Below, piece after piece: positions 2,903-32,337 of a stretch of DNA of 32,337 nucleotides (within the stretch, counting starts at the first letter, position 1; each line of letters begins with the position of its first letter). Below the pieces are notes generated by a model that searched no databases, was not told the origin of the DNA, and saw only the letters and a program-made list of their open reading frames with translations. The translations under genes were made by a program, and so were the position numbers. This stretch comes from an uncultured Bacteroidales bacterium (GTDB lineage: Bacteria > Bacteroidota > Bacteroidia > Bacteroidales > Muribaculaceae). The stretch covers positions 1 to 32,337 of the forward strand of contig CACWNQ010000030.1 in NCBI GenBank assembly GCA_902762385.1, read 5' to 3'.

Positions 2903-3478
2903 TTATTTCTCCTTGGGCAGTTTCTCAAGCAATGACGGATGTATTGAAGTAGTGACAATTGCCACCAGTCCCTGAACACTCACAACCACACGGCTGTCGC
3001 CCTTCACACGCTTAAGAATACCCTCGGCGCCCTCGAATGGACCACCAAGAATCCTCACCCTGTCGCCACGTGTGAACTGTCCTGGCTTAGGTGTGACATA
3101 AACCAATTGCTCGTCGTAGGTTCCTGCCACTGCAATAAAATTCTGCATCTCCTTGTCGGGCACCACCACGGGTTTCTTAGTCGCAGGGTTCATGATATAA
3201 CGAATGGGAAGTTTGGTTGTAGCCTTATACTCCCTCATCACCGAAGGTTCAATACGGAAAAATATAAGGTTGTGGATAGTGGGCACCAGTTTCTTCACAC
3301 GTCGACCACGCCGGGTGCCCATCACATATTTCATGGGAATGAAACTCTCGATGCCACGTAGGTCGAGGTCGTCCTTAACCTTCATCTCACGATTGAAGGT
3401 AACGCGTATGGCATACCAAACTTTCTGCTCGGGCTCTTTTAGAGGAGCATCAGTTGTGTTTATGTCGTTAATCTCCAT
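2903..3478 (-). CDS. UpxY-type transcription antiterminator (NusG paralogue)
   Basis: NusG-like factor of the kind that heads Bacteroides capsular polysaccharide operons and lets RNA polymerase pass early terminators. With the start at 3478 it has 191 residues. The NGN domain begins at WYAIRV (residues 21-26) and contains GIESFIPMKY. The KOW domain begins at GDRVRILGGPFEGAEG (about 138) and runs close to the C-terminus. A longer frame reaches 3529, but the promoter at 3499-3530 overlaps that extension, so transcription would start downstream of it. No UpxZ partner is visible; instead gmd and fcl follow. It is transcribed divergently from nadE. It is distinguished from housekeeping NusG by the low similarity of the NGN part; a few other NusG paralogues (LoaP-like) are possible. 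Confidence 0.85.
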   Translation of the reverse strand: MEINDINTTDAPLKEPEQKVWYAIRVTFNREMKVKDDLDLRGIESFIPMKYVMGTRRGRRVKKLVPTIHNLIFFRIEPSVMREYKATTKLPIRYIMNPATKKPVVVPDKEMQNFIAVAGTYDEQLVYVTPKPGQFTRGDRVRILGGPFEGAEGILKRVKGDSRVVVSVQGLVAIVTTSIHPSLLEKLPKEK

Positions 3479-3498
3479 TAGCGATTGCTTTTTTGCTT

Positions 3499-3530
3499 GC
3501 AAAAATAAAGTCAGATTTTCGATTTGCAAA
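3499..3530 (-). promoter_or_regulatory. Promoter of upxY; decides its start codon
   Basis: The minus strand shows TTTG (3530-3527), 19 bases, then TATTTTTGC (3507-3499), an exact match to the Bacteroidetes consensus. Transcription would start near 3492, which excludes the upstream ATG at 3529 and supports the ATG at 3478. Confidence 0.75.
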
Positions 3531-3597
3531 ATTTTCTTGCAAAAATAACTTGCACGCCTAAAGTAATTTGACGAAATTTGCAGAAAAAAGTAAGATT

Positions 3598-4446
3598 ATG
3601 GATTACAAGAAAGCATTCGACACCATGGTTAGCCAAACGGCTAAATATCTCAGTGAAAATGGTCTGAAGACAATGATATTAGGACTCTCGGGGGGACTTG
3701 ACTCCACAGTGACAGCTGCCATATGCCACGAGGTAGTGAACCAATATCCTGAGCATCAGTTCAAGTTTATAGGCGTGAGTCTGCCTTGCTCTTCTAATTC
3801 TGTCGAGGAGAACGACTCGGCAAGCTTGGCTATGAAGGCTTTCTGCAATGAGAGCTGGGTTGAGAACTTGCAAGCGCAGTACTTGCTCCTGAAGGCCACG
3901 TGCGAGCAACGTTATCCCTCCACTCCCATCTCGCAAGGTAACATCAAGGCTCGCCTTCGCATGATATACCTTTACAATCTCGCCTCGGTGACTGGCGGAC
4001 TGGTGATGGACACCGACAACCTCACAGAACATAACCTGGGATTCTGGACCATTCACGGCGACGTGGCCGACTACAACCCCATTGGCGGACTATGGAAACA
4101 TGAGGTGTATGAACTGTGCAAGTATATCTTTACCGAGTGCTTCGCCGATGAGAACGACCCACGTCATCAGGCACTACGTGCCGCCTACGACATCATGCCT
4201 ACCGATGGTAACGGCGTAGCAGCTGGAGGCGACATGGCACAAATAGCCCCAGGACACACCTACGAAGATGTAGACGACATCCTTAACTCCTACCTGCAGC
4301 ACGGAGAAGATGAGCAAGAGATGAAGCGTCTTATCGATGCTTATAGTGCCGAGACAGTGGAGCGCGTACTCACTCGCCATCGTCGCTCAGAATTCAAGCG
4401 CAAGCGCATGCCCCTGGTCATCGAAAGGTCACTTTACGACTCCTAA
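3598..4446 (+). CDS. nadE: NAD(+) synthetase, ammonia-type
   Basis: ATP-dependent amidation of nicotinate adenine dinucleotide to NAD, the last step of NAD synthesis. The protein is 282 residues from the ATG at 3598; the frame is open to a TTG at 3568, which lies inside the likely promoter (TAATTTG at 3564-3570). The N-type ATP pyrophosphatase P-loop SGGLDST is at residues 31-37. GNIKARLRM (114-122) and TDN...GFWTIHGDVADYNPIGGLWKHEVYEL (139-173) match conserved family regions. There is no N-terminal nitrilase/glutaminase domain, so ammonia must come from elsewhere. The sequence differs from the E. coli enzyme (for example GDVADYNPIGG where many have GDGGADIAPLG), so it belongs to a divergent branch. 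Monocistronic: upxY is divergent, and the DUF2461 gene converges 31 bases away. Confidence 0.88.
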   Translation: MDYKKAFDTMVSQTAKYLSENGLKTMILGLSGGLDSTVTAAICHEVVNQYPEHQFKFIGVSLPCSSNSVEENDSASLAMKAFCNESWVENLQAQYLLLKATCEQRYPSTPISQGNIKARLRMIYLYNLASVTGGLVMDTDNLTEHNLGFWTIHGDVADYNPIGGLWKHEVYELCKYIFTECFADENDPRHQALRAAYDIMPTDGNGVAAGGDMAQIAPGHTYEDVDDILNSYLQHGEDEQEMKRLIDAYSAETVERVLTRHRRSEFKRKRMPLVIERSLYDS

Positions 4447-18716: not shown

Positions 18717-19298
18717 ATGCTGAATATAGTAATATTCGGTGCCCCCGGTTCGGGCAAGGGCACACAGAGCGAAAACCTAATTGCACACTACGAGTTGTTC
18801 CACATCTCTACTGGCGACGTATTGCGCGACCATATGCGCCGTGGTACAGAGCTTGGCATGACAGCCAAGGAGTATATTAACCAAGGACAACTCATCCCCG
18901 ACGATCTCATGATCGACATTCTGGCACAAGTGATTGACGACAACAAGGAACTGGCACAAAATGGCGTAATCTTCGACGGATTCCCCCGCACCATTCCACA
19001 GGCCGAGGCTCTGGAAACATTGCTCAACGACCGTGGAACAAGCGTTAGTGCCGTTGTTGGTCTTGAAGTGCCCGAAGAGGAACTCATCGACCGTCTCGTG
19101 AAACGCGGACAGATGAGCGGTCGTAGCGACGACAACGAGGAGACTATCAAGAAGCGTCTCGACGTTTATCACAACCAAACTTCTCCACTGCAGGAGTTCT
19201 ATAAGGAAAAAGGCCTGTACCATGCCATTAAGGGCATTGGCACCATCGACGGCATCTTCGAAGACATCAAGGCTGCCATCGACTCAATCAATGCATAA
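18717..19298 (+). CDS. adk: Adenylate kinase
   Basis: Converts AMP and ATP to two ADP. The 193-residue protein has the P-loop GAPGSGKGT (residues 8-16), the AMP-binding FHISTGDVLRDHMRRGTELG, and FDGFPRTIPQAEAL. The LID is the short form (RGQMSGRSDDNEETIKKRLDVY) without zinc cysteines. Probably co-transcribed with hpt. In other Bacteroidetes hpt-adk is often followed by obg; here a repeat/hairpin element and hemW follow instead. Confidence 0.97.
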   Translation: MLNIVIFGAPGSGKGTQSENLIAHYELFHISTGDVLRDHMRRGTELGMTAKEYINQGQLIPDDLMIDILAQVIDDNKELAQNGVIFDGFPRTIPQAEALETLLNDRGTSVSAVVGLEVPEEELIDRLVKRGQMSGRSDDNEETIKKRLDVYHNQTSPLQEFYKEKGLYHAIKGIGTIDGIFEDIKAAIDSINA

Positions 19299-29879: not shown

Positions 29880-30064
29880 ATCAAATAATTGGCAATATTA
29901 CAGAGGCACCAATTTTCAACAAGTTGAAGCCTTAAGCCATCAACTCGGTGTTTGTAATCCTTCAATGGCACAGCCATTTCAGTTATTAAACCAATGCGAT
30001 TTATGGCATCTTTTACTGTTTCATTTACAATCTCCCTAATTTTATTTTCTGTCAGTTTATTCAT
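29876..30064 (-). CDS. Hypothetical protein, likely N-terminal part of the same frameshifted gene
   Basis: 62 codons from an ATG at 30064 to a TGA at 29876: MNKLTENKIREIVNETVKDA at the start, then KDYKHRVDGLRLQLVENWCLC. It is AT-rich like the next frame and overlaps it by four bases. One extra T at about plus position 29898-29899 (AAA for AA in the minus strand) would turn CNIANYLI-stop into CKYCQLFDLNNQNFAHW and fuse both frames. I do not recognise the family. The gap 30065-30374 to the next gene is described under the promoter at 30217-30354. Confidence 0.5.
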   Translation of the reverse strand: MNKLTENKIREIVNETVKDAINRIGLITEMAVPLKDYKHRVDGLRLQLVENWCLCNIANYLI

Positions 30065-30216
30065 TTTACATTAATATATTGTTCCACATTATCTTATTTG
30101 TTCTTTTTTTAATATACTATTTTGTTTTCAAATAAACAAGTGTCCAGTTTGTTTTTTGTGGTTCATCGCTGTACAGCAGGGTGAAATACTATATAGTTCC
30201 CAAAATGATAATTCAC

Positions 30217-30354
30217 GGGCAATTTGCGGCCATTTGTGTAGAAAAATCAAAGGGCACATTTTTGATGCTTATATCTGATTGATTTGCAGTTATTTGTAAA
30301 AAGTAAGGGCACGGGCAAAATGTTTGGTGGTTATCAGAAAACGTGCTAAATTTG
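30217..30354 (+). promoter_or_regulatory. Promoter of the TPR/HTH regulator with four GGGCAM boxes
   Basis: TTTG at 30323-30326, 20 bases, TAAATTTG at 30347-30354. Upstream boxes are GGGCAA (30217), GGGCAC (30252), GGGCAC (30307) and GGGCAA (30313). The last two are adjacent in AAGGGCACGGGCAA (30305-30318). The same arrangement is found upstream of the gene at 32248. The remaining part of this gene-free stretch (30065-30216) is AT-rich and shows only a 10-bp palindrome, GCTGTACAGC, at 30168-30177. Confidence 0.7.
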
Positions 30355-30374
30355 CAACGTTTTAAAGCATCATT

Positions 30375-32021
30375 ATGAAGAAACTATTGTACATTTCCCT
30401 CTTGGCTGTTTTGCTCTCGGCAGCGATAAGTTGCAACCGCAGTGTTGACAAGCGACTGGTTCTCGCCGACACGCTTATGTGGACACGTCCCGACAGTACG
30501 CTTGCCATCCTCTCAGCAATCAACCGAGATTCACTGCAAGGTGACGAGAACCAGGCATATTATGCCCTCCTTTTCACACAAGCACAGTTCCGCTGCAACG
30601 GTAATTGCACTAGCGACACTTTAATTAATAGTGCACTTGACTTCTATAGCGATAATCATAACCGTGAGCACTATACTCGCTCTTTACTCTATAAAGGTTC
30701 CTATTTCGAAGAAAGGGCCAATCCCGTCGAAGCTATAAAGTGGTTCAAACAGGCAGAAGACAACGCCGACAGCACCGACTATCGCAACCTTGCACAGATT
30801 AATATGCGCTTAGGTATGTTGTACTTTAACAACTATGCTACCAACAACCTTGATTTAAATAAGTTCAAAATGGCTGCTCATTATTACGAGATATTAAATG
30901 ACAAGAAAATGACGATGGCAGCCTTAGAATATTGCGGTAATGTGCTAAGAATTTCAGATGTTAATGAGGCAATAAAATGCTATGATAAGGCTTTGTTAAC
31001 GGCAAAAGAGTTAAAGGACACAACAAATATTTATAGCATCGATGTCAATTATGCATTGATGTATATTGAAGACTCTTTATACTCGCAGGCAAAGAAATAT
31101 ATTTTGGAGGCTTACCGGTTGAATAACAGGTTCGAAGAAAATAACAATTATTACATGCTGAGCCTTATTTATGCCAATCAAAAAGATATTGATTCTGCTG
31201 AATATTTCATCTCTTTGCCTGATAAATCACAAAACACAGCCTACGACAGTCTGCTGATGTATAAAGCTTTAAGGGAGATTGCGTTGTGCAAGAATGACAT
31301 CCCACAATATCGTAAATTCGACAAACAGTACTATAGAATCTCTGACTCTCTCGAACACAACGAAACAAAATATAAACTGCTTGACTCAGAGCAGGGATTT
31401 GATGCTGATAGAATTGCATCTAAAGGCAAGAAGGTGAACACATTAAATAAAACCATAATAATCCTTGTTGCTTTATTCTTAATCTTAGCACTGGTTACTG
31501 CAGCACTCTTTATCATCAGCCGCAGGAAAAATCGCAAAGATCAGCAGCAGATGATTGACGAACTGAAAGAAGAGAGTTTCGGCAATTATGAGGAGTTGAG
31601 GAGCAACCTTGCCGACTTTGACAACCACTTCAGCAAGACCATGAATGAGAGGTTGAAATCTCTTGAGGAGATAATGACTGGTGCCTACAATCCCAACCAG
31701 GACTCAAAGAGCAGCGAGGTGGTTCACAAGATATCGCCTATTGCTGATGACGACACTAAGTTCTGGGAAGGGCTGTATTCCTATATCAATATCAAGCATG
31801 ATGGCGCGATGGACAAGATTGCCAATGACTACCCGCAACTATCGGCGAGCGATTTGAACTTCATCAAGCTGATGTGCTGCGGTTTCTCCGATGCCGCTAT
31901 CGCCGTGTGCAGAAATTACAGGAATGTCGCTTCGGTCAGAAGTCGTAGACGCAAGATAAGAGACAAGATGGGTATAGAAGGTAACCTCACTGACTATATT
32001 AGTAGCATCACCCAAGGTTAA
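30375..32021 (+). CDS. Membrane-anchored TPR lipoprotein with C-terminal LuxR-like HTH
   Basis: The 548-residue protein starts with a lipoprotein-type signal (LYISLLAVLLSAAISC, Cys20). About 300 residues of tetratricopeptide-like helices follow (EAIKWFKQAEDNADS; EAIKCYDKALLTAKEL; YSQAKKYILEAYRLN). One transmembrane helix is at about 361-381 (TIIILVALFLILALVTAALFII), then a coiled-coil linker and a C-terminal helix-turn-helix, LSASDLNFIKLMCCGFSDAAIAVCRNYRNVASVRSRRRKIRDKMGI in outline (about 494-538). This is a known Bacteroidetes layout: periplasmic TPR sensor, one membrane pass, cytoplasmic LuxR-like DNA-binding end. It could control the exported protein encoded next, and itself, through the shared boxes. 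If the cysteine is lipidated, the protein is held twice in the inner membrane; if not, the N-terminus is just a signal anchor. Confidence 0.85.
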   Translation: MKKLLYISLLAVLLSAAISCNRSVDKRLVLADTLMWTRPDSTLAILSAINRDSLQGDENQAYYALLFTQAQFRCNGNCTSDTLINSALDFYSDNHNREHYTRSLLYKGSYFEERANPVEAIKWFKQAEDNADSTDYRNLAQINMRLGMLYFNNYATNNLDLNKFKMAAHYYEILNDKKMTMAALEYCGNVLRISDVNEAIKCYDKALLTAKELKDTTNIYSIDVNYALMYIEDSLYSQAKKYILEAYRLNNRFEENNNYYMLSLIYANQKDIDSAEYFISLPDKSQNTAYDSLLMYKALREIALCKNDIPQYRKFDKQYYRISDSLEHNETKYKLLDSEQGFDADRIASKGKKVNTLNKTIIILVALFLILALVTAALFIISRRKNRKDQQQMIDELKEESFGNYEELRSNLADFDNHFSKTMNERLKSLEEIMTGAYNPNQDSKSSEVVHKISPIADDDTKFWEGLYSYINIKHDGAMDKIANDYPQLSASDLNFIKLMCCGFSDAAIAVCRNYRNVASVRSRRRKIRDKMGIEGNLTDYISSITQG

Positions 32022-32096
32022 GAATCAAACAACTCTTTACAACATTAAGACAACAACAAAACAACCTTTTTTGCCTTTGTTTTTGTGCTCTTCATA

Positions 32097-32212
32097 GGGC
32101 AAAATGAAAAGGCACATCACAAAGTTGTTTAACGCACACAATTACAACGAGTTGCAAAAAGCAAGGGCACGGGCAATTTTCTTGCAAAATAGTTTTCGCC
32201 ACTGTAACTTTG
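32097..32212 (+). promoter_or_regulatory. Promoter of the 32248 gene with the same GGGCAM boxes
   Basis: CTTG at 32181-32184, 20 bases, TAACTTTG at 32205-32212. Upstream boxes are GGGCAA (32097), AGGCAC (32110), GGGCAC (32165) and GGGCAA (32171). The order and the 55-, 6- and 28-base spacings equal those before the 30375 gene. Confidence 0.7.
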
Positions 32213-32247
32213 CAACCAGAAAATACTAACCGATTTTAAAAATGCTT

Positions 32248-32337
32248 ATGAAAAAAATTGTTTTTGCACTTATGTGCATAATATTCACTACTGGCATAGC
32301 TAAGGCTCAGAAACAATTTACTTTTGGCCCAAAGATT
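32248..32337 (+). CDS. Exported protein, N-terminal 30 codons (probably outer-membrane beta-barrel)
   Basis: The frame from the ATG at 32248 (an alternative ATG lies two codons upstream at 32242) reads a signal peptide, MKKIVFALMCIIFTTGIAKA, then QKQFTFGPKI and leaves the window. The start of the mature part resembles porin-family (PF13568-like) outer-membrane beta-barrel proteins, which often begin FxFGxKxG after the signal. With so few residues this is a guess at the family. Its promoter boxes tie it to the TPR/HTH gene upstream. Confidence 0.6.
   Translation, partial: MKKIVFALMCIIFTTGIAKAQKQFTFGPKI

Follow-up and report, generated by a model that had tools for sequence, protein, structure and literature searches.

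Among the closest described systems are the SusR-like regulators of Bacteroides, which, in the available part of their description, are membrane regulators with a periplasmic sensor and a C-terminal DNA-binding domain (PMC3878776). The motifs predicted for them there are direct repeats whose centres lie 67 or 77 bp from each other, with a long spacer that is not conserved; the more alike the regulators, the more alike the motifs, and the targets are exported proteins of glycan-use operons (PMC3878776). A further comparison is BT_3442 of B. thetaiotaomicron, a TPR protein that heads a lipoprotein-rich cluster and adjoins BT_3441, a small Ig-like exported protein; the accessible sections of the source state no regulatory role for BT_3442 (PMC2954219). 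The promoter consensus of the phylum, as given in an excerpt of its published account, is TAnnTTTG plus TTTG near -33 (PMC7366714). The portions of the literature on TPR/HTH, BT3442, SusR and Muribaculaceae regulators to which we had access hold no description of a site or system such as the one reported here.

The window, i.e. the whole stretch of 32,337 nucleotides that was analysed, carries a gene for a TPR/HTH protein and, following it, an exported-protein gene (32242) that is cut after 32 codons because the window ends where the contig ends. The features of these genes and of their promoters, termed A and B, are collected in Table 1; the signal peptide, hydrophobic helix and C-terminal HTH of the regulator are predictions from sequence and model. 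The locus resembles those of SusR-like regulators in predicted protein layout, in direct repeats with a long unconserved spacer, in exported targets and in the way motifs follow regulators, but the repeat distance is 55 bp. SusR itself acts on glycan-use operons; here, among ten downstream proteins, Pfam finds SusF_SusE domains in two, a BspA-like LRR domain in one, dockerin in two, a transglutaminase-like domain in one, a weak MG2 match in one and no domain in four. The TPR/HTH protein probably works like a SusR-type one-component membrane regulator; the likeness is one of working, and family membership is not claimed.

The regulator shares with the BT3442 family (NF053779) its TPR domain, a similar length and exported proteins as neighbours. 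It scores 63.7 bits against this family, far under the cut-off of 940; of 23 relatives, 18 match the family with E no higher than 0.001. The model of the HTH (mean pLDDT 91.6 for the domain, 81.9 for the whole protein) matches the DNA-binding domains of LuxR/GerE regulators such as VraR, LiaR and RcsB. The best Foldseek matches of the domain are LuxR-type and weak, with no E-value below 0.001 (best 0.26) though the first VraR matches have a probability of 0.97-0.99, and Pfam GerE gives no match up to E 1. Those regulators differ in that the protein here has no receiver domain and is predicted to span the membrane, with a TPR sensor. The whole-model structure search returned general TPR proteins. 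The TPR superhelix of Rap/NprR sensors, which are cytoplasmic, is among the Foldseek matches, but this likeness is one of TPR folds in general, because the eukaryotic LGN scores better. All aligned regulators have Cys20 (30432-30434), which follows the signal peptide and is lipobox-like, despite the later membrane helix.

Table 1. Positions of the regulator gene, the adjoining exported-protein gene and their promoter elements in the window.
Feature	Position	Strand	Basis or remark
Promoter A far box AAGGGCAC	30250..30257	+	Sequence; co-varies with near box
Promoter A near box AAGGGCAC	30305..30312	+	55 bp from far box; sequence and comparison
GGGCAA after promoter A near box	30313-30318	+	Less conserved than box
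Promoter A -33 element TTTG	30323..30326	+	Sequence; TTG almost throughout the 56 sites
Promoter A -7 element TAAATTTG	30347..30354	+	TAnnTTTG in 54/56 sites
TPR/HTH membrane regulator, 548 aa	30375..32021	+	Signal peptide, TPR, TM helix about 356-380, LuxR-like HTH (predicted)
Predicted recognition helix, codons 518-532	31926..31970	+	Arg526 = 31950-31952
Promoter B far box AAAGGCAC	32108..32115	+	Sequence; co-variation
Promoter B near box AAGGGCAC	32163..32170	+	Followed by GGGCAA (32171-32176)
Promoter B weak -33 element CTTG	32181..32184	+	Sequence; TCTTGC in 26/56 sites
Promoter B -7 element TAACTTTG	32205..32212	+	Sequence and site alignment
Exported protein gene, start only	32242..32337	+	Beginning resembles signal peptide; cut by contig end

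Read at the level of sequence, the promoters of exported-protein genes and of one regulator subfamily carry two like-oriented copies of AARRGNNAC, 55 bp from start to start. The near copy lies 40 bp before TAnnTTTG and immediately precedes the -33 element. The two copies change together. When pairs of columns at least 12 columns apart were compared in 56 sites (four of 60, with more than 25 gaps, being left out), the top corrected mutual information among 4753 column pairs belonged to the C/T base of the far and near boxes, 55 columns apart. The far and near bases are C and C in 25 sites, T and T in 22, C and T in two, C and G in one, and gapped in six. This pair is still first after thinning to 34 and 17 sites, and the base adjoining it ranks 11, 32 and 58 in the full and thinned sets. 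The T/T combination was not put in by the profile used to collect sites, since its 12 training sites all had C. A motif-free scan of 63 regulator loci, in which the near 8-mer was set 40 bp ahead of an exact TAnnTTTG and at least seven of eight matches were sought upstream, gave lag 55 sixteen times, lag 56 once and every other lag at most twice. One of the loci so found, L143 of G090, repeats AAGGATGC, the core of which is unlike that of other sites; for more distant regulators of about 30% identity the scan gives no lag-55 repeat. An exception to the spacing is promoter A of G083, with 19 bp less between the boxes, which is not a whole number of turns.

Other features accompany the sites. 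In the B sites of one subfamily (L062, L067, L068, L131 and L133) the far box falls within an inverted repeat, GGCACGCTGTGCC. In the site alignment, spacer columns 25, 32, 39-40 and 46-47 (e.g. 30273-30296) show conservation, approximately TTGATTNNCAG followed by TT, which the two boxes do not explain.

An earlier note on this DNA had described the two promoters as four GGGCAM boxes in a fixed order. Several of its observations stand: the identical abutted pair AAGGGCACGGGCAA is present at 30305-30318 and 32163-32176, GGCACAT lies 38 bases before AAAAAG in both promoters, and GGGCAA lies 28 bases before the -7 elements TAAATTTG (30347) and TAACTTTG (32205). The four-box architecture itself is rejected by a reading of the A promoters and by the alignment of 56 sites. 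The outermost GGGCAA (30217) was seen in just two of 14 A promoters inspected by eye, those of the window and of L105, and the hexamer abutting the near box on its 3' side begins GGGCA in 18 of the 56 sites. The fixed spacing is real and conserved, but its unit is one box occurring twice rather than four boxes. The same note took the spacing to be selected and not the result of a recent copy, which agrees with the comparison of window promoters A and B: the boxes are alike at 15 of 16 positions, the spacers at 15 of 37 and the downstream sequences at 7 of 27. A recent copy or a simple repeat family is rejected by these unlike spacers. An RNA element is likewise rejected: positions 29900-32337 match no Rfam family up to E 0.1, and the boxes lie upstream of the -33 element.

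The exact 14-mer AAGGGCACGGGCAA occurs at two places only in the whole 2.89 Mb (2,886,330 bases) genome, and with one mismatch at six places, versus one for a reversed control pattern. In the window, nine matches with up to three mismatches compare with 2.3 expected, and none of 100 shuffles reaches nine, whereas GGGCAM alone is barely above chance (38 versus 27.7 expected; 4 of 100 shuffles get there). GGGCAA-N28-AAGGGCAC is of no use as a search pattern. Three clustered GGGCAM words (18739-18763) lie inside an open reading frame at 18717-19298.

The regulon proposed earlier is supported in relatives. When 101 genomes of the same genus were searched with a sequence-only profile built from 12 aligned sites of five genomes (A1), 12 of them yielded a total of 49 sites at E<1e-5; these E-values are rough, and weaker, chance-like matches up to E = 1 appear in every genome. 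The relatives are uncultured Muribaculaceae, Prevotellaceae or Bacteroidales genomes, several of them from rumen or omasum samples. When the regions round the sites and some weaker matches were rescanned with E up to 0.01, a set of 60 sites was obtained. The next gene encodes a TPR/HTH protein in 14 cases, a signal-like protein in 37 and another protein in three, and in six the contig ends; these tallies count sites, because some sites share one gene. Signal-like starts were called by a crude hydrophobicity rule, under which 14 of 38 background genes also qualify (11 of the 20 taken from the window, 3 of the 18 from unrelated loci). The genome of the window has further sites on contig 19, before a transglutaminase-like gene, and on contig 1, before a short lipoprotein-like gene; its two paralogues of the regulator (41% and 38%) have no AAGGGCACGGGCAA upstream. 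In G079 the 14-mer lies exactly 70 bp before two regulator orthologues (88% and 83% identical), as in the window. The exact 14-mer has 19 matches in 15 of the 101 genomes, of which eight have promoter context (two in G000, three in G079 and one each in G070, G083 and G086) and 11 do not; the latter look like coding DNA.

Sites and regulators occur in the same genomes. Sites (E<1e-5) are found in 12 of the 101 and the regulator (E<=1e-100) in 14, with both in 11 (Fisher p 2.7e-11). The remaining genome with sites, G031, carries a fragment of the regulator where a contig ends. Among the A4 regulators, a profile site follows 15 of the 19 with downstream sequence, and a site precedes 11 of the 20 with upstream sequence. 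The autoregulation proposed earlier is not general, since the other nine have no site there. Small exported proteins of one look, which we take to be DUF3244-like, follow the regulators of L062, L067, L135, L164, L186, L071 and L192; that of L062 has no Pfam match. Many regulators without an upstream site precede such proteins, as BT_3442 precedes BT_3441 in the part of its description available (PMC2954219).

The class of the box, as defined by its C/T base, tracks the predicted recognition helix of the adjacent regulator in the sequences compared. The A and B promoters of one locus agree at this base in 10 of 10 loci (six C, four T; 1 in 210 by permutation), while their spacers are 32-62% alike. 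Residue 526, which lies within the predicted helix, is Arg in 13 of 13 regulators with C sites and in none of eight with T sites (21 labelled regulators, A4), the latter having Met, Asn (five), Gln or Ser. Contact of Arg with the G of a C:G pair is of a known kind. Just two of the 544 columns, 526 and 441, set C-class and T-class regulators apart, and position 441 adjoins a stretch of low model confidence. Four T labels (L164, L064, L162 and L186) are weak, having been assigned by eye at lag 51-52 once the rule had been noticed; the profile has no site in any of these loci, and a looser scan of the second subfamily confirmed L164 only (lag 52). With the 17 firm labels alone, columns 13, 410, 441 and 526 separate the classes. 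The residue table leaves out L163, which has no site in the sequence covered, the frameshifted L155 and L156, and the fragments L070, L072 and L166. The regulators are kin, and box class changes three times on the tree of the cytoplasmic part or four times on that of the whole protein; supported independent pairs agree in 2 of 2 and 4 of 4 cases (p 0.5 and 0.125).

Not every site conforms. The far and near boxes have C and T in L126 and L113, and C and G in L112. T sites without a matching regulator were found in G000 (contig 1) and G086 (contig 7). In G083, whose sole Asn526 regulator belongs to the second subfamily, three T sites lie next to a regulator fragment on contig 81 or away from it. 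Counter to the rule, a C-class box stands before the regulator of L111 (G076 contig 33), where a type A promoter precedes a regulator of 36-37% identity with a different HTH; it looks as if regulator and promoter had been exchanged. A looser match involves residue 523, where Gly goes with A (GGACAC beside SVRGRRRK at L136, at L147 and at the near box of L154; GGATGC beside TVRGRKQK at L143) and Ser mostly with G; L144, L146, L139 and L137 are mixed in this respect.

Taken together, these observations make it quite probable that the TPR/HTH protein acts as a one-component regulator that spans the membrane, binds the repeat and controls exported-protein genes and, in one subfamily, its own gene. 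That it is the binder, as the earlier note had suggested, we infer from the match of helix and box, the agreement of A and B promoters and the co-occurrence of regulator and sites. The protein would be anchored in the membrane, its TPR domain on the periplasmic side, and a dimer would place its two HTH domains on the far and near boxes, where Arg526 would read the G at the variable C:G position. This arrangement is close to the model given for SusR-like proteins in the available part of its source (PMC3878776). Less surely, the regulator at the near box would touch RNA polymerase, and a periplasmic signal would lead to activation of the regulator's own gene and of exported-protein genes. A dimer of a large membrane protein that spans both boxes and contacts polymerase would account for the layout, with a near box ending shortly before the -33 element, a far box 55 bp beyond it and a weak -33 in B promoters. 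Judged from position alone, activation is clearly the likelier sense, and the regulator probably acts as an activator.

Repression by the same protein, for example by looping between the boxes, is compatible with distant direct repeats and with control of the regulator's own gene. We nevertheless consider it unlikely, because the near box is upstream of the -33 element and not over it, and because the weak -33 of B promoters is what activated promoters would have. A different binder, encoded elsewhere, might also recognise the repeat, the TPR/HTH gene being merely one of its targets. Such a factor could account for the sites without a matching regulator in G000 and G086, for the L111 promoter and for the nine regulators lacking a site of their own. 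That box class follows the helix of the adjacent regulator, that both promoters of a locus change together, and that regulator and sites co-occur across genomes make this distinctly improbable.

The regulators are also mosaic: in 22 of them (A3) the N-termini and HTH are nearly identical while the TPR middle (~180-340) is of several clearly distinct kinds, and several copies sit at contig ends. At L073 (G086 contig 7, 14000-20000), around 3385-3600 of the reverse strand, the greater part of the regulator gene is absent, and promoter A and the signal-peptide codons run directly into the downstream half of promoter B, before a dockerin-bearing exported protein. This mosaic structure, the contig-end copies and the largely absent gene in G086 could mean that cassettes are shuffled through the boxes, these being recombination or repeat sequences with an incidental promoter context. 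The fixed distance to TAnnTTTG in nearly all sites, the unlike spacers and the residue-to-base match in the HTH leave very little room for that explanation. With the boxes taken as operators bound by the TPR/HTH protein, a tentative extension is that the loci are a diversifying set of recombining cassettes, in which insulated regulator-operator pairs with a simple residue-to-base code are combined with an exchangeable periplasmic TPR sensor and adjacent exported protein, every pair retaining operator letters that match. In such a code Arg526 would go with C:G and other residues with T:A; at residue 523 the link would be looser, Ser going with G, and Gly or Ala going with A. If so, new surface proteins could be wired to new signals without cross-talk.

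For a family with up to 13 relatives per genome, comparison of promoters and proteins offers a putative binding site, a putative binder and a candidate specificity residue of a Bacteroidota membrane regulator. The pairing of regulator and site is directly testable, because the box changes in step with the predicted DNA-reading helix. It would let exported-protein genes be matched to their regulators in rumen genomes known only from metagenomes.
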